From: Myxococcota bacterium
GTDB taxonomy: Bacteria > Myxococcota_C > UBA6777
Direction of reading: 5' to 3'
Length of the DNA stretch: 19,869 bases
Assembly (NCBI GenBank): GCA_023150835.1
Contig: JAKLKB010000129.1
Coordinates: 1-19,869 of the forward strand
The notes beneath the pieces were generated by a model, which had not been told where the DNA came from, did no database searches, and was given only the letters and a program-made list of their open reading frames with translations. Shown here in pieces: positions 3,337 through 19,869 of the stretch; position 1 is the stretch's first letter; the number at the start of each line of letters is the position of its first letter. The position numbers were made by a program, and so were the translations under genes.

Positions 3337-3366
3337 CGAGCACTCCTTTCACATCAAACAAGTGGG

Positions 3367-3382
3367 GTATCCATCAGGATAC
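3367..3382 (-). promoter_or_regulatory. Perfect 6-bp inverted repeat upstream of the VWA lipoprotein gene
   Basis: GTATCC and GGATAC flank a 4-nt loop, about 18 nt upstream of the Shine-Dalgarno sequence of the VWA lipoprotein gene. It could be an operator or a small leader hairpin. No convincing -35/-10 pair was found in the 187-nt gap (3337-3523). Short palindromes arise by chance, so this is weak. Confidence 0.25.
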
Positions 3383-3523
3383 AAAAGCTCGAAAAAACAG
3401 GCTGATCTCCGCATCCCTCCAACGAAAGACTGCCTTTCCTTAAAAACGGTCTCTTGCCGATCCGTCCAATTATCCGTCGAGTCGGTACAAAAGAAAGGAA
3501 CAAATGCGGAGAAACCACAAGAA

Positions 3524-5203
3524 TCAATCTTCTACTTTGAGGATCTCGGTTTTTTTGCCGGTCAATCCGCCTTCGTCGGTCACTTCGAGCGTCACTTTGA
3601 ACTCACCACGCCCATCCACCAAAAAAGTCGGCGTCTTGTCCGTTTCGCTGCTAAGCTTACTCGCCGAACCCAACGGGACTTCGAGAGTCCATTTGTAGGC
3701 GGTAATCTTTCCCTCACGATCAAAACTGGTGGAAGGATCAAGCTTGACGCGGGGCCGCTCACCACCCCGAAAGACAGGATTGGGGATGGGCTTGTCGACA
3801 TCCGCAGCTTGGCAGACGTTCCCGCTGACTTCGGCACAGAGAAAGACAAAGCGCGCAAACGGAGGGATATTGACTTCAGTCCCAGCATTGATCGCGACGA
3901 CGATCCCCGACGTGGGATCTGCAAAAGCAGCATCGTTGGTTTTAACAACAACGCCCGCAGATACGGCAGTTTGTGCGGTGGGTGCAAAGATGACTTCGAC
4001 TTCAAGGATCTGACCTTTTGCAAGCACAATCGGAGCGGCCTGTGTGGGGACAGGAACTTCTTGTCCACCTTTTCTGAATTTTCCAAGCGTCAAAGAAGCG
4101 GGTGCAGCGCCTTTTCCATCATCGCTGGTCAGTTTCACCTCGGAGACTTGTAGGTCACACAGCGAGTTTGCGGGATCGGGCTGCAATTTGAGTGTTTTGG
4201 TTTCCGTTTTCCCCACAGCGATGTTCGAGAACGTCATCAATGACGAGTCGACGCTGCCGCGAGTGGGACTGCTGCCTTCAAGGCGCAACGAAAGCTGTTG
4301 CGCAGCAGGGGGTTGCCCTTTGTCTTTGTCGCCTTTTTGGAAGATGGAGTTGCTATTGATGTTGAGAAGTGCTTTGTGATCACCGCAGGTCTTGGGGGTG
4401 TACTGGACCTTGAATTCCATATCTTGGCTGGGCGTAAGTGCAAAGTCTTGGTTGAGTTCGATGGGTTTCCCGTCTTTGCCTTGGATGGCAAAAGACTTTG
4501 CGGGATCTTCTTGAACCCAAACAAAACGAAACTTGAGTTCGCCCGTTGTTGCGGCGTTTCGGATGATCAAAGTGTCGACTTTGCTTTTGTCTTTTTCAAT
4601 CTTGCCAAAAGAGATCAAAAAGTCCTTGTCACCGACCACTTGGGCGCTCACGTCGATCTTGGGTTCACCGCCGCGTGTTTGCATACGAATCTCTGTCTTC
4701 ACATCGCCGATGCTTGTAGGATCGTTGACATTTTTGGTATTCGAAACAATCAACACCTTGGCAAGTTGAAAGTCGTTGCTGTTGGAGAAGGTAAACTCCA
4801 CAGAAAATTCTTTTTTCTCACCGGGCTTGAGCTTGAATGGAACGGAGGGAAAAGGAACACATTGTTGCTCATCGGCCCCAAGCGGGCATTGATCGGAGAT
4901 CAATTTGAACTGCGCGCTTGCCGCAGCATCGAGCTTGATCGACTTGATCTCCAGATCTTGAGCGGTAAGAGCAGGGTCGATCTTGTTGCGGATGGAAAAC
5001 TTTTTGTAGATCCGCAGCCCTGCAGGACGAACTTCGCCGATGTTCCAGCTATCGGGCGTCAACTCGATCTCGGGCAAGATCGGCGGAACGGTTTTTTCTT
5101 CGGGGCAGGCGGTTTGAAAAACACCCATCACCAACAAAAGCAGCGCCCACACCGAGATCTTTGCGATCCGTTGCGGCCAAAATTGTCGCACAAATACATC
5201 CAT
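3524..5203 (-). CDS. Lipoprotein with ASH (HYDIN-like) domains and a C-terminal PKD-like domain
   Basis: The 559-residue product has a basic N-terminus, a leucine-rich hydrophobic segment (about 17-30) and a lipobox-like QTAC with Cys33, so it is probably an envelope lipoprotein. Three Ig-like ASH-type segments can be made out, beginning near residue 43 (TPDSWNIGEV), in the region before LISFGKIEKDKS, and at SLMTFSNIAVGKTETK. The last 100 or so residues read as a PKD fold (LDPSTSFDREGKI..Y.W and FKVTLEVTDEGG). Start at 5203: AGGAAAG sits 6 nt upstream. It shares fold and export type with the neighbouring VWA lipoprotein, which it precedes in transcription order, so the pair may form one surface assembly. 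No enzymatic motif is visible. The adhesion or scaffold role is inference. Confidence 0.88.
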   Translation of the reverse strand: MDVFVRQFWPQRIAKISVWALLLLVMGVFQTACPEEKTVPPILPEIELTPDSWNIGEVRPAGLRIYKKFSIRNKIDPALTAQDLEIKSIKLDAAASAQFKLISDQCPLGADEQQCVPFPSVPFKLKPGEKKEFSVEFTFSNSNDFQLAKVLIVSNTKNVNDPTSIGDVKTEIRMQTRGGEPKIDVSAQVVGDKDFLISFGKIEKDKSKVDTLIIRNAATTGELKFRFVWVQEDPAKSFAIQGKDGKPIELNQDFALTPSQDMEFKVQYTPKTCGDHKALLNINSNSIFQKGDKDKGQPPAAQQLSLRLEGSSPTRGSVDSSLMTFSNIAVGKTETKTLKLQPDPANSLCDLQVSEVKLTSDDGKGAAPASLTLGKFRKGGQEVPVPTQAAPIVLAKGQILEVEVIFAPTAQTAVSAGVVVKTNDAAFADPTSGIVVAINAGTEVNIPPFARFVFLCAEVSGNVCQAADVDKPIPNPVFRGGERPRVKLDPSTSFDREGKITAYKWTLEVPLGSASKLSSETDKTPTFLVDGRGEFKVTLEVTDEGGLTGKKTEILKVED

Positions 5204-5502: not shown

Positions 5503-5599
5503 GATGAGCGTGACACAGTTAACCCCAAAAAACCCTTCGACGGCGGACGATCATTGAAACGGGGATGATGAGCGTGACACAGTTAACCCCAAAAAACCC
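5503..5599. repeat. Exact 33-bp direct repeat, two copies
   Basis: The same 33 bp occurs at 5503-5535 and 5567-5599, a 64-bp period. It begins GATGAGCGTGACACAGTTAA and ends in CCCC, A6, CCC. After copy 2 the sequence continues into the interspersed hairpin element; after copy 1 it continues with a diverged version of the same arm. No transposase accompanies it. Confidence 0.92.
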
Positions 5600-5716
5600 G
5601 TGTTCGCGCCGCTTGAAGCGACAGCGTCGTTTGTCAGGAAAACCATCGCTCTCTTCGCCCCTCTCGGGGTCCATAGAGCTGCGCTCTATGGCGGAGTATG
5701 GAACCTCGCCCCACAA
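5588..5716 (-). repeat. Interspersed hairpin repeat, copy A
   Basis: It starts with an A-rich arm (CCAAAAAACCCGTGTTCG, then CTTGAAGCGAC, then GGAAAACCAT) and continues into a GC-rich block. That block contains a perfect hairpin: CCATAGAGC (5671-5679), loop TGC, GCTCTATGG (5683-5691), preceded by a smaller CCCC/GGGG pairing. The order matches the reverse complement of the element at 13983-14203 and the element at 18000-18140. Strand is given relative to 13983-14203. It is probably a REP- or MITE-like palindromic element; outer boundaries are by eye. Confidence 0.7.
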
Positions 5717-5802: not shown

Positions 5803-5922
5803 CCGCCATTCTTTGCGCAAGTGTATCGTGCGGAGGCACGCGGATAGGCTCTCCGGGTCGAAACGCTGCGCATGGCGCGTGCGGCTCACGAAAGACAGAC
5901 AATCGAACTAAGGTGGAATATC

Positions 5923-7557
5923 ATGTTAGAGAAAATGCGGACACACTCCCGCAACTGGCTGATCTCGTTTCTCTTTGGCATCATCATCGTGGTCTTTGCA
6001 ATCAACTTTGGCCCGGGCTTCGATCAGCTCAACCAAACGGGCTGCGTGCGCAACGCAGGGAATGCAGCGACGGTCAACGGCGAGCCTATCTCGCGGCAAC
6101 TCTTTATGATGCGCTGGCAAAACTACTTACAAGCGCGTCAGATCCCACCGCAATTCATTCAAGCCCTCGACCTAAAAGGCCGATTGATCGGCGAGATGAT
6201 CGATGTGCTGTTGCTTTCCCAAGCGGCTCGCCGTTATGGGGTTCAGATCGCCGACGAAGAAGTCCAACAACAGATCATCGAATCGCCCGAGTTCCAAAAC
6301 AACGATAAGATCTTTGATCCAGAGCGTTTTCGTCGTTTGGTGAGCTATTACGGCCTCACCACCGAACAATACCAAGAACAACGTCGCCAACTCCTTCAAG
6401 CCGATCGGATGCGCGCTGTGTTGACGGCAGGCGTACAAGTTTCGGATGACGAAGTGTTGCAGCGTTACAAAGAAAACAATGACAAAGCCAAGATCGCCTT
6501 CCTTTCGCTTCCAGCGACGGGCATCAAGCTGGATGTCAAAGTCAGCGAGCAAGATATCGATGCCTTTGTCAAAGACAGCGGCAACGAAGAAAAACTCAAG
6601 AAGCTTTACGACTCGCGCAAAAGCAGCTACGAGCGCAAAGTGCGCGTCAGCCACATCCTCGTGAAGACCGATCCTGCACGTGCGAATGATGCCGCCTACA
6701 TCGCAGAAAAGCGCAAAAAGATCGATGATATCCGCGAAAAAGTGCTGAAAGCCCCCAACGACTTCGCCAAGCTTGCCCGCGAGCAATCCGACGATCCCAC
6801 TCGCGCAAACGGCGGTGACTTGGGCTTTATCAACCAAGTGATGATGGTTCCGCCCTTTACCAAAGCCTCCTTCGCTCTCAAGCAGATCGGCGAGATCAGC
6901 CCCGTAGTACTCACCAACTTCGGCTACCATGTGATCAAACTGACGGGTGAACAGCCCGAACGCACCTTGGCTGACATGAAGCTCAAACGCGAACTTGCCC
7001 GTGAATTGGTCGAAACCGAACGCAACCAAAACGCCACGATGATCCTCGCCAAACAATTTCTCGCAGAAGCCCAAAAAGGCGCACGCTTCGAGGATATCGC
7101 CAAGCGTTACCAAAAACAGGACGCCCCCAAAAAGGACGCGACCTCGCAACCCACCTCCGTAGCGTCTCGCCCTGCTTCACAAACGCCTTACTACGCCCAA
7201 CTTGTAGGCAAAGTCGTGGTCAAAAGCCCCGCAGCATTTACACGTTTTCCCGACAACGTTCCTGATATCGGAAGCATCGAAGAGAGCAAGTCTCTTGTCC
7301 ATGCGGCTTTTTCGATGAAGCCCCAAGAACTGCTGAACCAACCTTTGGTGATCAAAGACAAGATCTTCTTGGTACAACTTCGCAAACGCATCGATCCCAA
7401 TATGAAAGAGTACGAGAAAGAAAAAGAGCAGCTTCGAGAACGAATGCTGAACCGCAAAAAGTCTCTTCTTGTCCAAACATGGCTCGAAAATATGCGTAAA
7501 AGCGCGGATATCTTCAAAAACAAAACCATCCTCTCTTACGGCCCCAACCTCAACTAG
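5923..7557 (+). CDS. ppiD: PpiD-like membrane-anchored periplasmic peptidyl-prolyl isomerase/chaperone
   Basis: The 544-residue protein has an N-terminal anchor (about residues 12-30, FGIIIVVFAINFG), a SurA_N-type chaperone region (about 40-215) and a parvulin PPIase domain (about 237-345). The family's two hallmark histidines are present: H244 in VSHILV and H336 in FGYHVIKL. A charged C-terminal lobe contains a Thr/Ser/Pro linker (SQPTSVASRPAS). Known: PpiD sits on the periplasmic face of the inner membrane and assists folding of proteins leaving the Sec translocon. ATG 5923 is preferred over the upstream in-frame ATG at 5872 because AAGGTGG lies just upstream and the anchor then falls at the extreme N-terminus, as in PpiD. 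The gene is apparently monocistronic behind its own promoter. Such a chaperone suits a region rich in exported proteins. The symbol is by family likeness; orthology to E. coli PpiD is not proven. Confidence 0.88.
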   Translation: MLEKMRTHSRNWLISFLFGIIIVVFAINFGPGFDQLNQTGCVRNAGNAATVNGEPISRQLFMMRWQNYLQARQIPPQFIQALDLKGRLIGEMIDVLLLSQAARRYGVQIADEEVQQQIIESPEFQNNDKIFDPERFRRLVSYYGLTTEQYQEQRRQLLQADRMRAVLTAGVQVSDDEVLQRYKENNDKAKIAFLSLPATGIKLDVKVSEQDIDAFVKDSGNEEKLKKLYDSRKSSYERKVRVSHILVKTDPARANDAAYIAEKRKKIDDIREKVLKAPNDFAKLAREQSDDPTRANGGDLGFINQVMMVPPFTKASFALKQIGEISPVVLTNFGYHVIKLTGEQPERTLADMKLKRELARELVETERNQNATMILAKQFLAEAQKGARFEDIAKRYQKQDAPKKDATSQPTSVASRPASQTPYYAQLVGKVVVKSPAAFTRFPDNVPDIGSIEESKSLVHAAFSMKPQELLNQPLVIKDKIFLVQLRKRIDPNMKEYEKEKEQLRERMLNRKKSLLVQTWLENMRKSADIFKNKTILSYGPNLN

Positions 7558-7771: not shown

Positions 7772-8176
7772 ATGTTTCACGACCGCTGGCTTCGATGGGT
7801 GGTCTTTTCTAGCGTGTTGGGTGGGGTATTTTTGGGATGGGTCGATCGCAGCGCGTGGGCCCAATGCAACCAAACGCTCTGCTATGTTTGGGATATCCGC
7901 AAAAAGCGCTGCACTTTCCGTTGCAAGGCGGGGCGCGAGATGTGTTTTCGCGGAAAGTGTGTGCGACTCAAACGTTGCCGCTCGCTGCGATGTGAACGGT
8001 TCGATCCCTCGAAAGGGCGCTGTGTCTCACAATGCCGCCAAGGGATGTTCTGTCACCAAGGCCGATGTACCCGCCGATGCCCACGACCCCAATGCTACCT
8101 ACAAACAACAAAACGTTGCGTCCAACGCTGCCCACCAAGAACGCGCTGTTTGAACGGCAAGTGTGCAAAAGATTAG
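7772..8176 (+). CDS. Small secreted basic protein with three tandem six-cysteine repeats
   Basis: The 134-residue product has a Sec signal peptide (hydrophobic about residues 8-24, likely cleavage after AWA before QC). The mature part is three tandem repeats of about 35 residues, each with six cysteines in the pattern C-x4-C-x(7-9)-C-x3-C-x(5-6)-C-x4-C, 18 cysteines in all. The spacing predicts three disulfide-knotted modules. Arg and Lys are abundant, so the protein is strongly basic. A full AAGGAGGT Shine-Dalgarno (7760-7767) fixes the start. No named family is recognised. The CxxGxC-type ends resemble short Cys modules in the lipoproteins at 14284 and 16225 and in the glycosidase at 11918. 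No partner gene is obvious. An extracellular binding or peptide-like role is inference. An overlapping frame (7638-8153) lacks a signal peptide and ribosome-binding site. Confidence 0.82.
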   Translation: MFHDRWLRWVVFSSVLGGVFLGWVDRSAWAQCNQTLCYVWDIRKKRCTFRCKAGREMCFRGKCVRLKRCRSLRCERFDPSKGRCVSQCRQGMFCHQGRCTRRCPRPQCYLQTTKRCVQRCPPRTRCLNGKCAKD

Positions 8177-8264
8177 GCGTCGTCAACATCTCGATCATTC
8201 GGGGACTTTGCGCGTTGAGACGACGCAACCAAGCGCGTTCGATGGCGTCAGCAACGTATGCGAC

Positions 8265-8341: not shown

Positions 8342-11209
8342 ATGAAGATACGCTGTGATAACTGCGCGACGGTATTTATGATCGAGGACGCCTTGATCTC
8401 GGATAAGGGAGTCAAGGCACAATGCCCAAAGTGCGGGCATCAAAAGGTCGTATGGAAACACAACGCCATCCAAGAAACATCATGGATCGACGCACCCGAA
8501 GGAAGCTCCGCCGCCACCGCGAACCCATCCAACTGGATGGACGAGCCGCTGTCTGGCGTGCTGCAAGAAAAACTCGCTTCGATGGACAAAGGACCCGCCC
8601 CGCTGCTTGGAGGGAGTCCTCCCTTGTTTGGTGGGGGCGATACCGCACGCGGAGGTTCGCTGTTGCCCGGTGGACCCACAGCCAGCTTGTACCCGCTCTC
8701 CAGCGCGTCGTCCGACAGCTTGTATCCCGCAGGAGAACAAGAACCTCTCGGTGGTGCGCTTTATGGTGCAGGCACAGGAGCTCGTGGAGCAAGCCTTTAT
8801 CCAGCAAGCCCTTCGCAAGACCTCCTTCCTCCGCTTGGTTTGGAATACGAAGACTCTCTGTCGGGTGGTGGCTTTGGAGCGCCCACCTCGATGGTCTACA
8901 AGCCACACGGAGCGCCGGAAACACTTTCCCTAGACGAAGAGGCCGGTGATTCGCTCGCCCTACACGTCCCACCCACCACGTTGACGGCGAGAGGCACCAT
9001 CGCCTCCAGCGAGATCGGTCGCAAAACCACAACAGAGGCCGAGCAGCCACCCGTCGATCCAGAGTGGATCAAAGTCCGCCGAAGCAGCGACAAAAAAGAG
9101 ATCGGCCCGATGACCCTTCAAGAAGTGCGCTCTCTCTACGCACACGGAAAGATCTCTTTGCTCGACGAGTGCGCAGGACGCGATGGAGGATGGCGTCTGA
9201 TCAAAGCGGTTCCCGAGATCGAAAGCATCCTCAGCCGAACCCCACAGATCACCGAAAAAACCCCCGAGACCAAAGGAACCACCAAAGCGGCGAAAAGCAG
9301 CAGCGAAGGAGGGAGTTTCGTTTGGGTGGTCTTGAGCCTTTTTCTGTTGGGCGGTGGCGCGGGTGCTGCTTATTTCTTGCGCCCGTATCTCAAGTCCAAC
9401 AAAGGTCCAAACCCCGAAGATGACGTTCCTCGTGCTGGCTTGCTTGAAACCAAGATCGAGCGGTGGAAAAAAAGTTATCCCGGACTCAAAGCAAGCCCTC
9501 GCCAAAGCAAAAAGATCGCAGAAAAAGGCATGGCCTTGTTCTATCGCGATCTTCAAAGCGACTATCGCGCCGCCAATGAGGTCTTCCAACAAGCTCTTGT
9601 GGCGTGGGACAAAAACGGAGATGTCATCGCAGCAATCGGCCTTTCCGTCTTATGGGGCTCGCAGGGATTGCCTCGACAAGGCCGCATCATCGAAGAGTTT
9701 GAAGAGATCCTGCGCGAACATACAAAAAAAATACCCACCAACCAAGCGATCAAAGCGGCCTTTGCAGCCTTTCTTGCAAGACAAGGAGAGTTCGCCAAAG
9801 CCACCGAACAAGCCAAACAAGCCGCTGCCAAAGCCCCGAAAGATCCGCTGGTTCTGTTGGTTTTGGGAGAATTGTTGCTCCAACAAGAACGCACAGCCCT
9901 CGAAGCTCGCCCCGTGTTGGAGCGCGTCGTCGAAACCCAACCCAAGATGGCCCGTGCGCGCTATCTACTCGCCAAAATACAAATCCAAAGCTCAAATCAT
10001 TACCAAGCCGCTCAAAACCTCGAACCACTCGTGCAAAACAAGCATCTCCCCAGCTTGTTCTTGATGGCGGAGCTTCAGCATAGTCTCGGAAATTACCGAG
10101 ACGCCAAACAAATCCTCAATCGGCTGCTTGCGATCGCCCCCCAAGATGATGAAGCTCGCTTGCTTTTGGGTATCCTCGAATATCAAACCGCTCGCAACTT
10201 CGCCGCAGCCAAGCGCCTTTTCGCTCGCCTCAACCAAAACTCCACCCAACGCGGCGTCTTGCGTCGTGCCCTGTTGCATCTCGCTTACGTCGCCTTGGAA
10301 GAAAACCAAACCCAAAAAGGCTTGGAGTTGATTGCACAGCTCGAAAAACTCGACAAACACTTCCTCCCGATCCTGTTCGCCAAAGCCCAACTCCTCGCAG
10401 CAAAACGCTCTTATCCCGAAGCCACCGCCGTTTTACAGCGATTGCTCCCACAAGTCTCCGAACCGCCACAACAGATCTTGCTTGGTTATCTCCACAACAA
10501 ACAAAAACAACCCGACAAGGCCAACCAAGTCTTCCAACAAATCGCAAGTGAAAATCAACGATTCATCTGGTCTTATCTCTTCCTTGCCGCCAACGCGATC
10601 GATGCCAACAACGCCACCCAAGCCTTCATCTACATCAAAAATGCCCTTGATATCGAACCGCCCTTGTACACAAGCAACTTGCGCGTAGGCCCTTATCCTC
10701 TCTCTCGACGTTTTCTTCGCGGCTTAGCCAAAACCTTCCGAGACGCCCGAACAGAGGACTCTTCCATTACCTTGGCTGCCGCAGGCATCGTGTATTACCA
10801 ACTCGGCGACAGCAACGAAGCCTCCAACTACTTGAAACGGGCCCGTTCACGCGACGCCAACGCCCTTGCTGCGAACCTCTATCTTGCACAGATCGCCTAC
10901 GAAAAAAAGCAATACGCCGCAGCGCAAAGCTACGCACGTCGGGTGTTTCAAACATACACCCAACACCCCATAGCCGGCACGATCTTGGGGCTGTGCGAGT
11001 TTCAAAAAGGCAGCGAAAAAAAAGCACTGGGCTACTTTTCACAGATCGAAGAAGCCCGCCCTTGGTATCTTTACGCACGCGCACACCGCTTGATCCTCTT
11101 GCACAAAAAAGGCGAAAAGAAGGACGCCCAAGAACTGGCTCGTTCTTTGTTGACCTTGTATCGCTACAACCACGACTTGTTGCGTATCCTCTACAGCATC
11201 CAATGGTAG
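8342..11209 (+). CDS. Zinc-ribbon / GYF_2 / transmembrane / TPR protein
   Basis: The 955-residue protein begins with an MJ0042-type zinc ribbon (C5, C8, C28, C31). A Gly/Ser/Leu/Pro-rich flexible stretch with repeated SLYP motifs follows, then a GYF_2 (DUF4339) domain (about 240-298: EWIKVRRSSDKKEIGPMTLQ.. ending in a GGW). One transmembrane helix (about 324-350) separates this from a long C-terminal array of tetratricopeptide repeats (about 375-950). Zinc ribbon and GYF_2 are probably cytoplasmic and the TPR array periplasmic. ATG 8342 is chosen because the zinc ribbon belongs at the N-terminus and a TTGACA promoter lies just upstream; the Shine-Dalgarno is poor. Known: zinc-ribbon plus GYF plus one TM is also the front half of the Myxococcus gliding protein GltJ/AgmX, where these domains bind MglA and AglZ. 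A scaffold role here is inference; the TPR tail differs from GltJ. Confidence 0.85.
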   Translation: MKIRCDNCATVFMIEDALISDKGVKAQCPKCGHQKVVWKHNAIQETSWIDAPEGSSAATANPSNWMDEPLSGVLQEKLASMDKGPAPLLGGSPPLFGGGDTARGGSLLPGGPTASLYPLSSASSDSLYPAGEQEPLGGALYGAGTGARGASLYPASPSQDLLPPLGLEYEDSLSGGGFGAPTSMVYKPHGAPETLSLDEEAGDSLALHVPPTTLTARGTIASSEIGRKTTTEAEQPPVDPEWIKVRRSSDKKEIGPMTLQEVRSLYAHGKISLLDECAGRDGGWRLIKAVPEIESILSRTPQITEKTPETKGTTKAAKSSSEGGSFVWVVLSLFLLGGGAGAAYFLRPYLKSNKGPNPEDDVPRAGLLETKIERWKKSYPGLKASPRQSKKIAEKGMALFYRDLQSDYRAANEVFQQALVAWDKNGDVIAAIGLSVLWGSQGLPRQGRIIEEFEEILREHTKKIPTNQAIKAAFAAFLARQGEFAKATEQAKQAAAKAPKDPLVLLVLGELLLQQERTALEARPVLERVVETQPKMARARYLLAKIQIQSSNHYQAAQNLEPLVQNKHLPSLFLMAELQHSLGNYRDAKQILNRLLAIAPQDDEARLLLGILEYQTARNFAAAKRLFARLNQNSTQRGVLRRALLHLAYVALEENQTQKGLELIAQLEKLDKHFLPILFAKAQLLAAKRSYPEATAVLQRLLPQVSEPPQQILLGYLHNKQKQPDKANQVFQQIASENQRFIWSYLFLAANAIDANNATQAFIYIKNALDIEPPLYTSNLRVGPYPLSRRFLRGLAKTFRDARTEDSSITLAAAGIVYYQLGDSNEASNYLKRARSRDANALAANLYLAQIAYEKKQYAAAQSYARRVFQTYTQHPIAGTILGLCEFQKGSEKKALGYFSQIEEARPWYLYARAHRLILLHKKGEKKDAQELARSLLTLYRYNHDLLRILYSIQW

Positions 11210-11392: not shown

Positions 11393-11914
11393 ATGGAAAA
11401 TCCGTTGGTAGCGGTTGTGATCTCTGCCGAAAATGAGCTGGCTTATATGGAAGAATGCGAGCGAACCCTGATCGGCTTTGGAATCCCTTTTGAATCCCGT
11501 GTGCTCTCACTCCAGCAAGCTCCTGAGCACTGTATCGATTGGGCGCGTTCCGTCGAAAAGCGCGGTGTCAAGGTCGTGATCGCAGGTTCGAGTTGGTCTG
11601 CTCCCTTGGCTTCGGTGCTTTCTTCTTTCACCATTCTTCCCGTAATCGCCGTCCCGCTTCCCATCTCTCCGATGCACGGGCTCGATGCGCTCATGGGCAT
11701 GGCGCAGTCCTATGTGGGCGCACCCATCGCAACGATGGCCGTCGGCAAACCCGGGGCCGCCAACGCGGGACAATTGGCCGTACAGATCTTGGCTTTGCAG
11801 TTCCCTCAGCTTGCAGACCAATTGCGCGCCTACCGTTCGGGCCTTGCAAAACAAGTCGAAGCCAAAGACGGTGCGCTCTACCAAGATCGCCAACGCCGTC
11901 GCCTTGGGAGTTGA
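11393..11914 (+). CDS. PurE-fold (AIR carboxylase family) protein lacking the catalytic residues
   Basis: The 173-residue protein aligns along its length, by eye and without gaps, with class I PurE (N5-CAIR mutase), of similar size. It keeps the hydrophobic strands and the C-terminal GKPGAANAGQLAVQIL signature. The active-site motifs are gone: the phosphate/substrate loop GSxSDW reads SAENEL (residues 11-16), SAHRTP reads SLQQAP (39-44; catalytic His and Arg become Q41 and Q42), and GGAAHLPG reads SWSAPLAS (67-74; the second His becomes P71). Canonical purine synthesis activity is therefore unlikely. ATG 11393 has GAGGGAG upstream. The stop is 3 nt before the next ATG, so it is almost certainly co-transcribed with the secreted glycosidase. 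It may be a structural or ligand-binding pseudoenzyme, or a subfamily with a changed substrate. The true purE would have to lie elsewhere. Family assignment is firm; function is unknown. Confidence 0.85.
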   Translation: MENPLVAVVISAENELAYMEECERTLIGFGIPFESRVLSLQQAPEHCIDWARSVEKRGVKVVIAGSSWSAPLASVLSSFTILPVIAVPLPISPMHGLDALMGMAQSYVGAPIATMAVGKPGAANAGQLAVQILALQFPQLADQLRAYRSGLAKQVEAKDGALYQDRQRRRLGS

Positions 11915-11917
11915 GCC

Positions 11918-13918
11918 ATGCGGATCTGGCTGGTGTGGAGTGCCGTCCTTTGGGTGTTTTGGCGATCTTTGGGCGCAGAGGTACTCGCGGCCCCTCCGCC
12001 CGGCCAAAGCGCGCTACTCAACGGTATGCACGATATCGAATCTGCCGCGTGGATGAAAAATGCCACGCCCGGTTGCGACAAAGGCTGGATTACCGATCTC
12101 CGCTACATCGGCACACAAGGCAACCCCGCCGCCGACTGCCATCTAGCCACCACCCAAGCAGGCCTCTCGATCATCCAACGCCTTGATGTCAGCGGCTCCG
12201 AATCTTATCCCCACGATCCCGCCCAAGCCACCGCCTTCGCCAACACCTTCGCGGCCTACGTCGCTCAATGCCCCAATATCCACGTCTGGATCGTCGGAAA
12301 CGAACCCAACTTTACGGTCCACAAAAGCGATCCCGACTGCTCTTCTTCGGCTTATGCCAAGGCTTATGCCGAAGTCCACAAGCGCGTACATGCCTTGCCC
12401 GGACACCAAGACGATATCGTCCTTCTCGCCTCCAACTCGCCCTACTCTCCGGGATGTTTGGCAAGTCTTCGTTCCATCATCCGCTACGTCAAACAAGAAG
12501 GCGTACAGCCCGATGGTTTCGCTGCTCACGCCTACACACGCGCCCCCAATGCCGGCCAGATCAACGCAAGCCTCGTCACCGATACACGCCGTCAGACCGA
12601 CCCCACCGTCGACGAATGCCCCGGGCCGATCACTTGGAATGACACATGGTACTCGCATTTCTTGATCTACCGCGATTACATCGGTGTGATGGAATCCGAA
12701 GGTATGCGCGGAAGCCCCGTCTTTATCACCGAAAGTGGCAACGCTTGTGATCCTGTCCGTGGCAACGCTTGTTATCCCAACGCCGACGTCGGCTATTTCC
12801 AAGCCCTCTACAAAGAAGCCCATCAGTGGAACAGCAACAGCGCCAACCTCACCAAGATCCGTGCGATCACGCCCTATCGATGGACGATCAACGATGATGG
12901 TACAGGACGAGACTTTGCCATCGGCCAAAAGCCCGGGCTGTTGGGAGATCTGACCAAAGCCTTCGCTCAACGCTACGCATGGACCACCATCGGATGTGGA
13001 GGCCAAACAGGTTGCACCAAAGATGCGGATTGTCCTCAAGGACAGCGCTGTGACACTCCAAGCGGCCAGTGCGTCGCTCCACCCTGCAAACAGGCCGCAG
13101 ACTGCCCAGCAAAGATCTGTAGCCCCAACAATTGTTCAACATCTCCCGGCCAATGCGTGGACAAAGGCGAAGGAAGTTTTTCTTGGCAAACCAACCCACC
13201 CGTCGCTGGGCAAGACCTGCGCATCCAGTTCACTCACCCTTCTGGCTGGACACACATCGGTCTGCGTTATTGTGGCCCTGCCTCGGGCACAGGCCGCGAT
13301 CTCAAGATATCACGAGACCCCCAAGATCGACCGATCTGGGCCTTCACCATCGGGCCCCTTCCTGCTGGACGTTATCGCGTCGACTTCACCGCCGATAGTG
13401 AAACCCGCATCATCGGCTCCACCGAGCTGATCGTCCCTTCCCCTTGCTCTCCCAAACCCGAAGAGTGCAACAACCAAGACGACGATTGCGACGGACAGAT
13501 CGACAATGGCCTCTCGCGCCCCTGCTACGATGGCCCGCCTGAAACGCGAGGGCGCTTGCCTTGTCAAGATGGCGCACAGCTTTGCAATGCCGGTGTCTGG
13601 GGGCCTTGCGTCGGACAATCCTTGCCTGTCCCCGAACGCTGCAACCAAGCCGACGACGATTGCGACGGACAGATCGACAATGGCTGCAACCCTCACCCCG
13701 AACCTCTCTCCGAAACCGCCCACGAATCCGCCCCTCAAGAGCCTTCTCCCGACAGTGCCGCGAACGAGATATTGATCTTGGACGGCAGCGAACAAGACAA
13801 AGAAAAAACAGTCCTGCGCCCCACAGGTTGCGGCTGCACAGGCCCAGATACGCCCCTTTCGGGTGGGTTGCTTTTGGGTGGACTCTTGCTCTTGTTCTTG
13901 CTGCGTCGGCGATTTTAA
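11918..13918 (+). CDS. Secreted clan GH-A-like glycoside hydrolase with MopE motifs and MYXO-CTERM tail
   Basis: The 666-residue protein has a signal peptide (about 1-25, cleavage near LAA/PPP). Its catalytic part (about 30-358) carries clan GH-A hallmarks: GNEPN with candidate acid/base E129, HAY (204-206) as in strand 6, and FITESGN with candidate nucleophile E272. A Cys-rich EGF/Dickkopf-like module (366-413) follows, then a beta-rich domain (about 418-506). Two MopE-type metal-binding motifs come next (CNNQDDDCDGQID at 517-529 and CNQADDDCDGQID at 575-587). The tail GCGC (637-640), hydrophobic helix and RRRF match MYXO-CTERM signals processed by myxosortases. The ATG is 3 nt after the PurE-like gene, implying an operon with it. 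The substrate and exact GH family cannot be called from sequence alone. Export and surface anchoring are well supported; hydrolase activity is likely but inferred. Confidence 0.86.
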   Translation: MRIWLVWSAVLWVFWRSLGAEVLAAPPPGQSALLNGMHDIESAAWMKNATPGCDKGWITDLRYIGTQGNPAADCHLATTQAGLSIIQRLDVSGSESYPHDPAQATAFANTFAAYVAQCPNIHVWIVGNEPNFTVHKSDPDCSSSAYAKAYAEVHKRVHALPGHQDDIVLLASNSPYSPGCLASLRSIIRYVKQEGVQPDGFAAHAYTRAPNAGQINASLVTDTRRQTDPTVDECPGPITWNDTWYSHFLIYRDYIGVMESEGMRGSPVFITESGNACDPVRGNACYPNADVGYFQALYKEAHQWNSNSANLTKIRAITPYRWTINDDGTGRDFAIGQKPGLLGDLTKAFAQRYAWTTIGCGGQTGCTKDADCPQGQRCDTPSGQCVAPPCKQAADCPAKICSPNNCSTSPGQCVDKGEGSFSWQTNPPVAGQDLRIQFTHPSGWTHIGLRYCGPASGTGRDLKISRDPQDRPIWAFTIGPLPAGRYRVDFTADSETRIIGSTELIVPSPCSPKPEECNNQDDDCDGQIDNGLSRPCYDGPPETRGRLPCQDGAQLCNAGVWGPCVGQSLPVPERCNQADDDCDGQIDNGCNPHPEPLSETAHESAPQEPSPDSAANEILILDGSEQDKEKTVLRPTGCGCTGPDTPLSGGLLLGGLLLLFLLRRRF

Positions 13919-13982: not shown

Positions 13983-14203
13983 ACGTTTTTCAAACGAACG
14001 ATACCTCTGCTTGAACAGTTTCTTTAATCACGTTTTTTCGATAAGGCCACGCGGTTGCGATCGTTTTGATGGGGCGCTGCCCCATACCCCGCAAGGAAAC
14101 GCGGCTCCCTTGACCCCGTGTTGGCGAATGGATCTATGGTTTTTCAAACAAACAACTCCGTCGCTTGAAACATTACGAACACGGCGTTTTTTGCCCAATG
14201 CGT
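13983..14203 (+). repeat. Interspersed hairpin repeat, copy C, flanked by two related AT-rich arms
   Basis: The GC-rich core holds two hairpins: ATGGGGC, loop GCT, GCCCCAT (14069-14085), and CAAGGAAAC, loop GCG, GCTCCCTTG (14092-14112; nine pairs counting G-T). Two related arms of about 60 bp lie on either side (about 13983-14041 and 14136-14195), each with TTTTTCAAAC, a CTTGAA and a CGTTTTTT. The core is the reverse complement of the core at 18064-18125. Confidence 0.72.
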
Positions 14204-14283
14204 CAATCCTATCTCAAGTACGTGATCTCTATTGTGCCTGTCATCTGCGCAATCTTTATCGTACCGAAAGGAGAATTTTGAAC

Positions 14284-16077
14284 ATGAAGCTCCCGTTGTG
14301 TGAGGGGCTTTGGTCGAGACGACACCTTGTTGGGTGGTGCTTGTTCATGGTGTGTTGGTTTGCTTCATCGTGCATAATCGAACCATTACCGTACTTGCGC
14401 TGCTACCCATGCAGAAAAACTTGCATCGAAGAGCAAAAGTTGATTTGCGTGCAGGGTGTTTGCGTCCCCGAAGCCAACCCCGATCCCAAACAGTGTCGCG
14501 GCGAAAAAACCGACGGCGACACCGAACAAACTGAAATTCCCGAAGAGGCCACTCACTCCGAAGAGGCCGCAAATCCCGAAGAACCCACCACTCCCGAACC
14601 CGAGCCTTACATCGAAACTGAACCCGAACGCCCTGAAACCCCCGACACTCAACACGTACTCATCACCCTGCTCGAAGGCGATGATGATCGAGAGCAACCT
14701 CTCTCCTATCCCACCGGCACTTCCGCGCCTCCAAACGCCAAAGAAGCCAAATTCCGATTCCGCACTTCATGGCGTGTCTTCGGGGCGAACCTTCGTCGCA
14801 TCGACTCTTGGAAACTACAATCCAAAGATAAATCTCAGACTTTTTCTCTTACTGCTACCGACATAAAGGATACCGACATGAAACTCACTCTCCCTGCTGC
14901 CCTCACTGCGGGCTTTTTTACTCTCCTTGGACTCATTGGCACCACCCCCACCGTTCAAGCCGAAGTTTACGTTCTCCAAGGCAAAGATGGCAAAGACGGC
15001 GCACAAGGCCCCAAAGGCGACATCGGCACGCAAGGCCCCGCTGGGAAAGACGGCCTCGGCTTCGATCCGACCACCCTCACCTTCGTCAACGCCCTCAAAT
15101 CCGCTGTCTCCATCCAAAACAACACCCTCACCTTCAAAGCCGACACCATCACCGTCGACACAAAAACCTTCACCGTCAAAGGCGATACCAAACAAACCAC
15201 CCTCACACTCGACGACTCCGCCCAAACCATCACCCTCGAAAAAGCCAATGTCCGTGTCGTCAACGGAACCAACAAAACAGACCAGACCAACAATCTCGGC
15301 AACCTGATCCTCGGCTACAACGAAGACGGTGGCACCACAAAAATACGCACCGGTTCTCACAACCTCATCCTTGGTACCGAACACAGTTATACCCGCCATT
15401 CGTCCATCCTTTCTGGCATCAAGCACACCGTCAACGCCGCCTACGCTTCCGCCATCGGTGGCTCTTCCAATACCATCACCAGCAACGCCCTCTACTCCGT
15501 TGCTATTGCTGGACAAAACAATACCTTCGCTTCCTCTGGCACTGCTCTTTATGCGGCTTCCCTTGGTGGCGAGGACAATAAAATCAATTCCAACTACGCC
15601 GCCGCTGTCGCTGGACAAAATAACAGTAATACAGGGACGCATGCCGCCGCTGTCGCTGGACAAAATAACAGTAATACAGGGACGCATGCCGCCGCTGTCG
15701 CTGGACAAAATAACAGCATCACAGCGACCCATGCCGCCACTCTCGCCGGCGGTGGAACGAGCACGAACGACAAAAACACCGTTTCTCAACCTTACGCGGC
15801 TGCCGTCGCTGGACAAAATAACACCGTTGACGGGAAGTATGCCGTCGCTGTCGCTGGACAAAATAACAGTATCATAGGAACCCATGCCGCCACTCTCGCT
15901 GGCGGTGGAACGGACGCGAACAACCACAAAAACACCGTTTCTCAATCTCACGCGGCCATTCTAGGGGGGCAAAACAACAACATCGATGCGGGTTCAAAGG
16001 CTGCCGTCGCTGTCTGCGGCTCTTTTGGCGTCAACTCCACTCTTTCCTCCTCCTCCTGTTGTGTTGGCAATCCTTGA
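14284..16077 (+). CDS. Collagen-like lipoprotein with YadA-head-like beta-roll repeats (first paralog)
   Basis: The 597-residue protein starts at ATG 14284 (AAAGGAG 10 nt upstream). It has a lipoprotein signal with lipobox ASSC (Cys30), a short Cys-rich module (40-71), a Glu/Pro-rich linker (about 85-122) and a probable IPT/TIG-like Ig domain (about 123-231). Nine Gly-X-Y collagen triplets (about 233-259) follow, then a Thr/Lys-rich beta region. The C-terminal part (about 354-590) is a beta-roll opened by RTGSHNLILG. It is built from repeats such as AAAVAGQNNSNTGTH, with the Gly and Asn spacing of trimeric-autotransporter (YadA-type) heads. The protein ends in a Cys pair. Three identical strands winding into a collagen-type stalk with a beta-roll tip is a plausible inference. 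A paralog follows 147 nt downstream. An adhesive surface fibre is the best guess; no binding partner is visible. Confidence 0.85.
   Translation: MKLPLCEGLWSRRHLVGWCLFMVCWFASSCIIEPLPYLRCYPCRKTCIEEQKLICVQGVCVPEANPDPKQCRGEKTDGDTEQTEIPEEATHSEEAANPEEPTTPEPEPYIETEPERPETPDTQHVLITLLEGDDDREQPLSYPTGTSAPPNAKEAKFRFRTSWRVFGANLRRIDSWKLQSKDKSQTFSLTATDIKDTDMKLTLPAALTAGFFTLLGLIGTTPTVQAEVYVLQGKDGKDGAQGPKGDIGTQGPAGKDGLGFDPTTLTFVNALKSAVSIQNNTLTFKADTITVDTKTFTVKGDTKQTTLTLDDSAQTITLEKANVRVVNGTNKTDQTNNLGNLILGYNEDGGTTKIRTGSHNLILGTEHSYTRHSSILSGIKHTVNAAYASAIGGSSNTITSNALYSVAIAGQNNTFASSGTALYAASLGGEDNKINSNYAAAVAGQNNSNTGTHAAAVAGQNNSNTGTHAAAVAGQNNSITATHAATLAGGGTSTNDKNTVSQPYAAAVAGQNNTVDGKYAVAVAGQNNSIIGTHAATLAGGGTDANNHKNTVSQSHAAILGGQNNNIDAGSKAAVAVCGSFGVNSTLSSSSCCVGNP
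14538..15029 (+). repeat. Duplicated 492-bp block, copy 1
   Basis: This segment aligns without gaps to 16521-17012 at a constant offset of 1983 bp, with about 15 differences by eye. It encodes the Glu/Pro linker, the IPT/TIG-like domain and the start of the collagen triplets. Sequence on either side is much more diverged between the two genes. Confidence 0.92.
15598..15732 (+). repeat. 45-bp coding tandem repeat, three units
   Basis: Units are 15598-15642, 15643-15687 and 15688-15732. The first two are identical and the third has a few changes near its end. Each encodes one 15-residue beta-roll turn (residues 439-483). Related partial units recur at about 15799-15880. Confidence 0.9.
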
Positions 16078-16224
16078 GTCCCCCCTCCTCGATGCGCTTC
16101 CCTTTCCTGTTCCCCTCAAAACACCGACCGCTCTTGACACCTGCCGTTGCCTCTGCCATCTCTCTCCACAGCGTCTGCTTTTTCTACCACCCTTCACTTT
16201 ATTTCTTGACATCACGGAGGCCCC

Positions 16225-17904
16225 ATGCCACCGCCCTTTTTCACGCACGCTCCTCCTTCAAAACGTGCAAACCACCGATACTTCGCCCTTTTCATCTCAA
16301 CTCTCTTTTCACTCTCCCTTCTTCCCCTTCACACCGCTTGTTTGCCTCCTGCTCCCCTCGACTGCACTCTTTGTCCAGCCGACCGCAACTGCGGAGTGAA
16401 CACGGGCTTTGTATGCAAAGACGGCTATTGTGTCCCTGAGAGCGACCCCAACCCCGCTCGCTGCAAAACCGAACTCCCTGACGTCGGTTTGGAAAAGACC
16501 GAACCCCTCGACGAGACCTCTCCCGAAGAGGCCACCCACCCCGAAGAGGCCGCAAATCCCGAAGAACCCACCACTCCCGAACCCGAGCCTTACATCGAAA
16601 CCGAACCCGAACGCCCTGAAACCCCCGACACTCAACACGTCCTCATCACCCTGCTCGAAGGCGATGATGATCGAGAGCAACCTCTCTCCTATCCCACCGG
16701 CACTTCCGCGCCTCCAAACGCCAAAGAAGCCAAATTCCGATTCCGCACTTCATGGCGTGTCTTCGGGGCGAACCTCCGTCGCATCGACTCTTGGAAACTA
16801 CAATCCAAAGATAAATCTCAGACTTTTACTCTCACTGCTACCGATATAAAGGATACCGACATGAAACTCACTCTCCCTGCTGCCCTCACTGCGGGCTTTT
16901 TTACTCTCCTCGGACTCATTGCAAACACCCCCACCGTTCAAGCCGAAGTTTACGTTCTCCAAGGCAAAGACGGCAAAGACGGCGCACAAGGCCCCAAAGG
17001 CGACACCGGCACCGCTGGAAAAGACGGCGACACCAAGTTCACCGACGCCGATGCTACCGCCCTCAAAGCTCTCCTTCTCAAACTCCAAGCCAGCGGTGAC
17101 AACCTCAACATCACCGCAAACACCGTTTCTTTCAAACCCACCTCCGGCGGCAATGTGACACTTGACCTCGGTGCTTCCGCCTCCCTCAAATCGGGCAACG
17201 CCACCCTCGACTTTGCGGGCGATGCCATCACCGTCACCTCAACCACTTTTTCCGTCGATACCACGTCCAAAATCGCACTCAAATCTCCCGATGTCGCCGT
17301 CGCCTCGACCACTTTTGAGGTCAAAGGAACCGCCAACAAAGTCTCCTTCAAAATCGATGACGCAAACAAAAAAGCGACCTTTGATACCGCAAACGTCCAC
17401 GTTCAAAGTGGACTCGGGCAAACAGCCCCTCCCGGCCCGACCTCCAACGATCCCCCCCAAACCAACGGGCTTGGTAACCTTATCATCGGATACAATGAAA
17501 CTCGCCCGTCTGGAAATCCTTTAAGAACAGGCTCTCATAATCTTATTATCGGCGCAGAACACCACTACACCAGCCACAGTGGCTTCGCTCAAGGTAAAAC
17601 GAATTCGATTCGCGGGGAACTCGCGGGGGTCTTTGGGGGGTCAGGGAACACGGCGAGTTCCCAAGGAGCGGGGGTCTTTGGGGGGTCAGGGAACACGGCT
17701 TCGGGGGTTTTTTCATCCGTCCACGGAGGTGGCGGCAGTACAACGACGGACGGAAACAAAGCTGAAGCCAAATACTCGTCCATACACGGCGGGCGGGGGT
17801 GGAACATCGTTGCAGGAACAAACGATGCGAAAACTTTTCATGGCCAAATTGGAGAAATTGTACTTTGTGGCCCGTCTCCTTCTAAAACGTTGTGCCAGCA
17901 GTAA
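16225..17904 (+). CDS. Collagen-like lipoprotein with YadA-head-like beta-roll repeats (second paralog)
   Basis: The 559-residue protein repeats the plan of its upstream neighbour. A signal peptide with lipobox HTAC (Cys39) leads to a Cys-rich module (47-79), a Glu/Pro linker, an IPT/TIG-like domain and eight Gly-X-Y triplets (about 247-270). A different beta region follows, then a beta-roll opened by RTGSHNLIIG (about 434) with GG-x-GNTAS turns. GGAGG ends 4 nt before the ATG. The middle is nearly identical to the first paralog, while the lipobox region and the C-terminal tip differ, so the tip may set the binding specificity. Codon choice changes from C-ending to G-ending codons from about 17596, suggesting the tip has a separate origin. 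The 147-nt gap before it has a TTGACA (16134-16139) but no good -10, so co-transcription with the first paralog is possible. Confidence 0.85.
   Translation: MPPPFFTHAPPSKRANHRYFALFISTLFSLSLLPLHTACLPPAPLDCTLCPADRNCGVNTGFVCKDGYCVPESDPNPARCKTELPDVGLEKTEPLDETSPEEATHPEEAANPEEPTTPEPEPYIETEPERPETPDTQHVLITLLEGDDDREQPLSYPTGTSAPPNAKEAKFRFRTSWRVFGANLRRIDSWKLQSKDKSQTFTLTATDIKDTDMKLTLPAALTAGFFTLLGLIANTPTVQAEVYVLQGKDGKDGAQGPKGDTGTAGKDGDTKFTDADATALKALLLKLQASGDNLNITANTVSFKPTSGGNVTLDLGASASLKSGNATLDFAGDAITVTSTTFSVDTTSKIALKSPDVAVASTTFEVKGTANKVSFKIDDANKKATFDTANVHVQSGLGQTAPPGPTSNDPPQTNGLGNLIIGYNETRPSGNPLRTGSHNLIIGAEHHYTSHSGFAQGKTNSIRGELAGVFGGSGNTASSQGAGVFGGSGNTASGVFSSVHGGGGSTTTDGNKAEAKYSSIHGGRGWNIVAGTNDAKTFHGQIGEIVLCGPSPSKTLCQQ
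16521..17012 (+). repeat. Duplicated 492-bp block, copy 2
   Basis: This is the partner of 14538-15029. Differences are mostly synonymous; the visible amino-acid changes include Ser to Thr near residue 202 and Gly-Thr to Ala-Asn at the LGLI boundary. Such closeness beside diverged flanks suggests recent duplication or gene conversion. Confidence 0.92.
17623..17712 (+). repeat. 45-bp coding repeat in the second paralog's tip
   Basis: A block opening GCGGGGGTCTTTGGGGGGTC and continuing to AACACGGC starts at 17623 and again at 17668. The first 32 bp of each copy match, and the ends differ. The 45-bp period equals one 15-residue beta-roll turn, the same period as in the first paralog, but the codons are G-ending. 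Confidence 0.85.
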
Positions 17905-17999: not shown

Positions 18000-18140
18000 A
18001 AAAAGAAATGACGTGTTCGCGCCGATTCGAACGGCAGGGATGCTGCTTTGAAGAAGGCTGATCACCCCGTCCGTACGGGGTCAAGGGAGCCGCGCTCTGT
18101 GGCGGGGCATGGGGCAGCGCCCCATACGCGCCAAGGCAAG
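18000..18140 (-). repeat. Interspersed hairpin repeat, copy B
   Basis: It has an A-rich arm with GTGTTCGCGCCG (shared with copy A), then perfect hairpins ACCCCGT, loop CCGT, ACGGGGT (18064-18081) and ATGGGGC, loop AGC, GCCCCAT (18109-18125). Between them is a diverged version of the GAGC-CGC-GCTC hairpin. It fills most of the 251-nt gap between the convergent lipoprotein and phosphatase genes and could help end transcription from both sides, although no T-run follows the stems. The rest of 17905-18155 shows no gene. Confidence 0.72.
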
Positions 18141-18155
18141 CAAATCGCCTTGCGC

Positions 18156-19529
18156 TTATGGCACATCTCGACCGGGAAGCCACTCTTCCTCTTTGGCGAG
18201 ATCTTGCGCTTTTGCCCGAATCTCCGAGGAGGAAGACTTATTGCGCGTGATCTCGATCAACACAGGCTTGGATCCTTCTAACTTGACGCGCTGGGCCTCC
18301 GAAGACCATTTGTCCTTGCGCAAGCGCACGACATAATCCCCCACAGGAAGGCTCAAACTAAACCCGCCGTTTTGCAAACTCCCGATCGGCGTATCATCGA
18401 TCACAAGCTCCGCATCAGGAACGTCGGAGGCGATCACCAATTGCCCGTTGGCTGTAGGTGGAGCGACGATACGCGGCCCTGTATTCCCCGAAAAGATCTG
18501 CCGCAACGTCGTACGATTGGCAAAGATCGCATACGCGATCAGACCAAAAAACACCGCTGCGTAGATCATCAACATCGGCGTCGCAAACACGCGCTTGTTG
18601 AGCCAGTGCGCCAATCCAAGCTCTTGTTCCATACGCTTGGTGATCAAGTCGACGGGCTTTCGGACGTATTTGACGTTTTGCGGGATCGCGGGTTGAGGCT
18701 TCGGAGACTTTTTCAGATCCGCCCCCGAAAGCCGCAAGACGATCGACGTCACGTTGTCCTTTCCGCCATTTTCGAGCGCTTGTCGAACCAGCGCAACCGT
18801 CGCGGCTTGGACATCCTTGTGTTGGTTCAAGATCTCCTTGATCCTTGCATCGGGGACTTCGCCATGTAGTCCGTCCGAACAAAGCATGATCACATCGCCC
18901 TCTTCGAGCTCGATGAACTTAAGATCCACCAACACTTGCGGCGTCGGTCCAAGCGCTTGCAGGATCACGTTCTTTCCCGCAAAATTCTCCGCATGTTCCG
19001 CGCTGATCGCACCTTCTTCGATCAGCCTCTCCAACAACGATTGATCTTTCGTGACGCGTGTTAATTCACCACCACGCAACAAATAAGCCCGGCTATCGCC
19101 CACTTGTGCAAGGAAAGCGACATCACCGTAGATCGCCGCTGCCGAAACTGTCGTACCCATCCCTTTTTTGGAGGTGTCCTGTTGAGCGAGCGTATAGATG
19201 CTGTGATTGGCTTTTTGGATCGCATGATCCAATTTTTCTCCGAACAGTTGGGGATCTTGCGCAGGTTCAAGATCTTGAAGCTCTCGAAACAGCGTATCCA
19301 CCGTCATCTGGCTCGCCACTTCACCCGCTGCCGCACCGCCCATCCCATCGCACACCGCAAACAACAACCCACGCCCGCCCAAACGCCACGTCTCTCGCGT
19401 TTTATGCCGACCTCTGCGTTGGGTTTGCAGATCGGCGATCAAAAAATTATCTTCGTTCCCCTTACGAACACGCCCGACGTCACTCAGGCCAAAAAATTCC
19501 GCACTGATCTTTGGTGCTAATGGATCCAT
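18156..19529 (-). CDS. PP2C-family Ser/Thr phosphatase with TM helix and PEGA domain
   Basis: The 457-residue protein dephosphorylates Ser/Thr phosphoproteins by family. Its PP2C domain (about 10-267) has every metal-site motif: RKGNEDN (D27), CDGMGG (D61, G62), GMGTT (123-127), GDSRAY (144-149), CSDGL (D219) and GGKDNVT (D258). A linker, one transmembrane helix (about 316-337) and a PEGA-type beta domain (about 362-428, with DTPIG and LPVGDYVVRL) follow. The catalytic domain is predicted to be cytoplasmic and the PEGA domain periplasmic. ATG 19529 has AGGA 8 nt upstream. Known: such phosphatases counteract Hanks-type kinases, and PEGA domains occur on bacterial signalling proteins. No kinase gene lies in the window. 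It is convergent with the lipoprotein gene ending at 17904 and appears to be a single gene here. Function assignment is strong; targets are unknown. Confidence 0.93.
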   Translation of the reverse strand: MDPLAPKISAEFFGLSDVGRVRKGNEDNFLIADLQTQRRGRHKTRETWRLGGRGLLFAVCDGMGGAAAGEVASQMTVDTLFRELQDLEPAQDPQLFGEKLDHAIQKANHSIYTLAQQDTSKKGMGTTVSAAAIYGDVAFLAQVGDSRAYLLRGGELTRVTKDQSLLERLIEEGAISAEHAENFAGKNVILQALGPTPQVLVDLKFIELEEGDVIMLCSDGLHGEVPDARIKEILNQHKDVQAATVALVRQALENGGKDNVTSIVLRLSGADLKKSPKPQPAIPQNVKYVRKPVDLITKRMEQELGLAHWLNKRVFATPMLMIYAAVFFGLIAYAIFANRTTLRQIFSGNTGPRIVAPPTANGQLVIASDVPDAELVIDDTPIGSLQNGGFSLSLPVGDYVVRLRKDKWSSEAQRVKLEGSKPVLIEITRNKSSSSEIRAKAQDLAKEEEWLPGRDVP

Positions 19530-19704: not shown

Positions 19705-19869
19705 AATCCGCCTGTTGTGTGATCGTGTAGGGGCAGCCCCCTGTGGCTGCCCGATAATCCGCCTGTTGTGTGATCGTGTAGGGGCAGCCCCCTGTGGCTG
19801 CCCGATAATCCGCCTGTTGTGTGATCGTGTAGGGGCAGCCCCCTGTGGCTGCCCGATAATCCGCCTGTT
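19705..19869. repeat. 51-bp tandem repeat with internal palindrome, at least 3.2 copies
   Basis: The unit starts AATCCGCCTGTTGTGTGATC at 19705, 19756, 19807 and 19858 and is cut by the window end. Complete copies appear identical. Each has a perfect 8-bp hairpin, GGGCAGCC, loop CCCTGT, GGCTGCCC (19731-19752 in copy 1). GTAGGGGCAGCC-type palindromes are a known kind of dispersed bacterial repeat; here they are in tandem. Confidence 0.93.

Follow-up and report, generated by a model that had tools for sequence, protein, structure and literature searches.

The PurE-like gene at 11393..11914 (+) of the window, the stretch of 19,869 nucleotides analysed here, encodes a member of the class I PurE fold family, hereafter PurEl, whose active-site residues have been replaced while the gene has stayed under strong constraint within a conserved cluster and a canonical purE lies elsewhere in the genome. 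We put at roughly 0.6 the probability that PurEl is a neofunctionalised PurE pseudoenzyme, probably serving this envelope-associated cluster from the cytoplasm as an adaptor or ligand-binding scaffold. That it is not an N5-CAIR mutase is well supported; the role as a scaffold is what we infer. PurE is a housekeeping enzyme that has been studied as a drug target, and its His has been described as universally conserved, yet the PurEl family has dropped the active site. In the literature searched, we found no report of PurE paralogs without one. Below, G000 denotes the genome of the window and G001-G004 the other sampled genomes of its phylum.

Fold and active-site residues of PurEl

The gene and its three altered motifs are located as follows.

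11393..11914, + strand: PurE-like paralog PurEl, 173 amino acids plus stop (from the ORF, Pfam, NCBI models and predicted fold)
11420..11440, + strand: motif I, residues 10-16, ISAENEL replacing MGSxSDL; invariant in five of five orthologs
11507..11524, + strand: motif II, residues 39-44, SLQQAP replacing SAHRTP, with Gln at the sites of the catalytic-base His and the phosphate-binding Arg
11582..11614, + strand: motif III, residues 64-74, AGSSWSAPLAS replacing AGAGGAAHLPG; varies between orthologs

The ORF starts with ATG and has no internal stops, and no signal peptide is visible by eye. The AIRC family PF00731 matches residues 6-152 of the 173 at 122.6 bits (gathering cut-off 30), bearing out the sequence-only reading of a full-length protein colinear with class I PurE. 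With the purE equivalog TIGR01162 the score is 115.7 bits, under the cut-off of 149.6, so that the resemblance to PurE is far above chance, yet PurEl is not a standard PurE. Class I PurE proteins are the nearest solved structures by sequence. The AlphaFold2 model, built from 59 sequences, has a mean pLDDT of 95.5 and an intact PurE fold; in comparisons with Foldseek and VIA-align 2, class I PurE ranks first with Z near 27, and most rows give an rmsd of 0.9-1.6 Å over some 160 residues. The structure prediction proposed from the sequence thus recovered the fold. The octamer probably persists, to judge from the intact predicted fold and the core positions retained.

PurEl therefore resembles class I PurE (TIGR01162, PF00731) in fold, length, colinearity and order of helices and strands, but differs in its three replaced motifs, its score under the equivalog cut-off and the presence of a canonical purE elsewhere. 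The class II PurE/PAICS AIRC domain has the fold in common with it (Z around 20-21) but keeps SAHK with its His, where PurEl has SLQQ and neither is kept; two class II-type sequences that retain SAHK (L121 and L123) are, at 23-27% identity, more distant from PurEl than class I. LarB belongs to the PF00731 superfamily and has another substrate; its model NF033503 matches PurEl only partially, at 23.5 bits against a cut-off of 175, and the genome encodes a separate LarB-like protein. Model scores and motifs rule out PurEl as a LarB or a class II PurE.

Replaced positions were defined by comparison with 52 canonical PurE sequences that came from loci in many phyla. In motif I, GSxSD has become SAENE, positions 11, 12, 14 and 15 each being 98-100% conserved in the canonical set. 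Motif II has changed from SAHR to SLQQ (A40L, H41Q, R42Q) with S39 retained, and motif III carries A66S, G67S, H71P and G74S. The observation from sequence that GSxSDW, SAHRTP and GGAAHLPG are all altered, with both His and the Arg lost, is accurate for PurEl. Among positions conserved at 98-100% in canonical PurE, seven carry the same substitution in every one of the five orthologs (M10I, G11S, S12A, S14N, D15E, R42Q and G74S), while A40, A66, H71, M106 and P107 are changed in all five by varying substitutes. In motif III, position 71, the site of the second His (H75 in E. coli, H89 in A. aceti), is P, G or S in the orthologs, and position 68 is W or G. Position 41, the catalytic-base His of class I, is Gln in four of the five orthologs, PurEl included, and His in that of G003. 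Orthologs that keep the catalytic His, named beforehand as something that would count against the sequence-only reading, thus occur in part: one of the four others has it, the remaining three having Gln. The G003 protein nevertheless lacks the second His, the Asp that binds the ribose and the phosphate-binding Ser, Ser and Arg, and a canonical PurE is encoded in its genome as well. PurEl numbering equals that of A. aceti PurE minus 18 (S57, H59 and H89, from entry titles, become 39, 41 and 71).

The C-terminal signature had also been read as intact. This is correct for G96, D98, L100, Q105, G109, P111, T114, G121, A122 and N124, but the canonical QMP motif is QSY in PurEl. P83 and P88 are further core PurE positions that are kept.

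The consequences can be judged from human PAICS, in which the AIR phosphate is bound by Lys304, Ser274 and Ser276 and the ribose by Asp277, the imidazole contacts are Ser301 and the backbone of Gly330, and the general base is His303, a residue that both PurE classes, I and II, retain (PMC9376930). In the same order, these residues align with Q42, A12, N14, E15, S39, G65 and Q41 of PurEl, which keeps only S39 and G65 of the ligand residues; the phosphate and ribose replacements A12, N14, Q42 and E15 are fixed in all five orthologs. Exchange of the His for Gln inactivates E. coli PurE and leaves the A. aceti enzyme only traces of activity (PMC9376930). The E. coli H45Q mutant, crystallised with nitro-AIR and CAIR bound (PDB 2nsh, 2nsj), has the same catalytic-base change as Q41 of PurEl but, unlike PurEl, is a single engineered mutant with intact phosphate ligands. 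Because this His-only mutant still binds, the loss of the phosphate ligands, not that of the His, would be what abolishes AIR binding in PurEl.

Canonical purE, orthologs and constraint

Three PF00731 proteins are encoded in the genome of the window: a canonical PurE (223 bits, contig C226), PurEl, and a 54-bit match on contig C167 whose size and score suggest a LarB-like protein. Overlapping the canonical purE is an ATP-grasp/PurK_C gene, which scores 411.9 bits, above the cut-off for purK. This purK-purE operon implies that the host has the usual two-step purine route without PurEl, and the search for a second, canonical purE suggested by the sequence-only reading was thereby successful; PurEl as the only PurE-type protein of the genome is ruled out. 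A canonical purE was detected alongside PurEl in four of the five genomes of the phylum and was not found in G002, a draft of 930 contigs. PurEl is 32-37% identical to the canonical PurE of the same genomes.

Orthologs of PurEl occur in all five sampled genomes of the phylum (65-99% identity), and motif I, R42Q and G74S are common to all of them, as had been looked for in asking whether relatives carry the same substitutions. A profile of the five sequences scores members of the clade at 344-351 bits, while the next best match among 386 genomes across the domain reaches 166 bits; the next-best matches inspected are canonical PurE. No ortholog was found with this profile in the rest of the 386 genomes, in 195 genomes of the phylum of G032 (best match 151 bits) or in the single genome sampled from one further phylum, an absence that holds for the sampled genomes and covers Myxococcota proper only as far as these samples reach. 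In a tree, the five orthologs group as a single clade with support 99/100. Its stem measures 2.24 changes per column, path distances from the window protein inside it are at most 0.76, and it does not adjoin the clade of the purE genes of the same genomes. A long stem with short inner branches is what a burst of rapid change and subsequent strict conservation would leave.

Constraint on PurEl is at least as strong as on the enzyme itself, which shows that a PurE scaffold can be put to a different use. Between G000 and G001, dN/dS (Nei-Gojobori) is 0.014 for PurEl, a value that rests on two amino-acid changes in the closest pair of genomes, 0.048 for canonical purE and 0.024-0.159 for neighbouring genes; PurEl has the lowest value of the nine genes compared. 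The dN/dS check envisaged at the outset therefore points to strong constraint. Between genera, PurEl orthologs are 65-67% identical and canonical PurE 71-73%, while the neighbouring peptidyl-prolyl isomerase, TPR and Cys-rich proteins show 33-46% in most alignments. About half of the PurEl positions are invariant across three genera. Together with the canonical purE elsewhere, the shared substitutions and the intact predicted fold, the low dN/dS favours the initial suggestion that PurEl is maintained to serve another function. A PF00731 or 'PurE' annotation does not, then, imply purine synthesis.

The gene cluster

The genes around PurEl are these.

5872..7557, + strand: cluster gene 1, SurA/PpiD-like peptidyl-prolyl isomerase (PPIase) with an N-terminal membrane segment; start uncertain
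7772..8176, + strand: cluster gene 2, Cys-rich protein, no Pfam family, probably secreted
8342..11209, + strand: cluster gene 3, protein with Zn-ribbon, weak GYF_2, transmembrane segment and TPRs (start set at the Zn-ribbon Met, 8342; the ORF begins at 8258)
11918..13918, + strand: 666-aa protein, probably secreted, with a glycosidase-like N-terminal part and a Cys-rich/MopE-like tail
18156..19529, - strand: protein phosphatase of the PP2C type, in convergent orientation; the next gene after PurEl in G002 and G004

The order PPIase, Cys-rich protein, Zn-ribbon/TPR protein and PurEl, all on one strand, is found in five of five genomes, the PPIase of G002 being cut by the contig start. From the TPR stop to the PurEl start there are about 26-70 nt in G002, G003 and G004; the window has a longer gap of 183 nt, in which nothing resembling a promoter or terminator was found. 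Downstream, the 666-aa gene lies directly 3' of PurEl in G000 and G001 and further along the contig in G003, and was not found in the stretches of G002 and G004 examined; the PP2C gene is convergent and downstream in four of the five genomes.

The TPR protein has an N-terminal Zn-ribbon, the weak GYF_2 match, a hydrophobic segment near residue 325 and then the TPRs. Invariant positions make up 57% of the Zn-ribbon and 46% of the GYF-like part, against 5% of the linker and 16% of the TPRs. If its topology is like that of similar one-pass proteins, the Zn-ribbon/GYF part would be cytoplasmic, and since this conserved part and PurEl would both lie in the cytoplasm, a partnership between the two proteins is plausible. 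A similar Zn-ribbon/GYF cytoplasmic part acts as a hub in the Myxococcus gliding protein GltJ; the NCBIfam GltJ model matches only the N-terminus of the TPR protein, at 38.5 bits against a cut-off of 450.

Several other features of the window were noted. Upstream of the cluster (259-5203, - strand) are genes for two large proteins, divergently transcribed and probably secreted, which are conserved in G001, G003 and G004. At 14275-17904, two tandem genes encode proteins with collagen-like GKDGKDGAQGPKG stretches and have in common a 492-bp block of 97% identity; the first also has AAVAGQNN-type repeats. In G001 the PP2C gene is directly 3' of the 666-aa gene, with no such pair between them, so that G000 seems to have gained the pair by insertion or expansion. 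Copies of a dispersed repeat, some 50-150 bp long and 77-88% identical, lie in both orientations at 14047-14193, 5589-5671 and 18044-18125, and again in other contigs of the genome (L120, 2964-3108 and 6094-6223). At 19705-19869, a 51-bp tandem repeat of 3.2 copies, matching at 100%, extends off the contig end.

Possible roles of PurEl and a second PurE-fold paralog

That PurEl is simply a decaying purE duplicate would agree with the missing active-site motifs, but a dN/dS of 0.014, an ORF open in all five genomes and invariance at about half of the positions across three genera refute decay for the phylum as sampled and make this reading next to impossible. That PurEl still works as an N5-CAIR mutase or AIR carboxylase through a rearranged active site, the canonical purE being redundant, is very improbable. 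This reading could draw on His41 in G003, on the retained S39 and G65, and on the trace activity of the A. aceti His-to-Gln enzyme (PMC9376930), but every ortholog has exchanged the second His, the ribose Asp and the phosphate ligands, and the canonical purE, with all its motifs and in the purK operon, is itself conserved. Catalytically dead paralogs are known as partners of deoxyhypusine synthase and AdoMet decarboxylase in trypanosomatids (PMC3663545, PMC6221367), and PurEl might likewise be a regulatory pseudo-subunit, forming mixed octamers with canonical PurE and tuning purine synthesis. The same fold, the presence of both proteins in four of five genomes and the retained core positions G96, D98, P83, P88, P111 and N124 are in line with this idea, which we nevertheless regard as rather improbable, given identity of only 32-37% to the genome's own PurE, a position in the tree apart from its clade, a gene in the envelope cluster rather than the purKE operon, and G002, where no canonical purE was detected.

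That PurEl catalyses new chemistry on a new substrate, in the same pocket at the subunit interface but with Glu15, Asn14 and Gln41/Gln42 in place of His, Arg and Asp, is unlikely but deserves consideration. LarB demonstrates that the PurE fold can accept another substrate, and I-S-A-E-N-E-L is invariant in all five orthologs with R42Q and G74S fixed, a new polar pocket that suggests a specific ligand. Four of the five, however, have no obvious general base or nucleophile, the residues of motif III vary, and metabolic genes are absent nearby.

We therefore prefer the pseudoenzyme scaffold. PurEl would have arisen as a paralog of class I PurE, keeping the predicted fold and probably the homo-octamer; with its phosphate ligands, its ribose-binding Asp and at least one catalytic His exchanged, it would no longer work as an N5-CAIR mutase and very probably would not bind AIR/N5-CAIR either. 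Purines would be made through the separate purK-purE operon, and strong purifying selection would hold PurEl within the envelope-associated cluster, where, presumably cytoplasmic, it might for example dock on the conserved Zn-ribbon/GYF region of the TPR membrane protein, whose gene lies just upstream. Against this scaffold stand His41 of G003 and the retained imidazole contacts S39 and G65, which make some imidazole-like ligand or weak chemistry possible, the variation of motif III, unlike a tightly defined new ligand pocket, and the draft genome G002 (930 contigs) with no canonical purE detected; nor does gene neighbourhood alone demonstrate an interaction.

Another phylum also contains a PurE-fold paralog that lacks the catalytic His, present in G057 and six relatives (L167-L173, family f54; 45-53% identity to the G057 protein). 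G057 also carries a canonical PurE (L016). The paralog adjoins a family 2 glycosyltransferase (GT2) gene and accA in seven of seven genomes and evolves faster than its neighbours. It differs from PurEl in its neighbours, its faster evolution and its motif replacements, the Arg being kept in some members; since the replacements differ, the two probably arose separately. Among 386 genomes, two PF00731 matches at E <= 1e-20 occur only in the window's group, G057 and G312, so that extra PurE copies of such strength are rare. With two apparently independent cases, the ligand of the PurE scaffold becomes directly testable. A broader and distinctly tentative proposal, which we think somewhat doubtful, is that PurE-fold pseudoenzymes are recurrent, at least two phyla having independently made conserved non-mutase modules tied to envelope or lipid clusters, and that the fixed new pocket of PurEl (I-S-A-E-N-E, Q42, S74) binds a ligand and signals to a membrane Zn-ribbon/GYF/TPR hub.

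Separately, an atypical PurE-like stretch in G033 (L118, 9775-10170) lies beside a purD-like gene and has SVHR as motif II with altered motifs I and III; from its sequence it may be a divergent active PurE.
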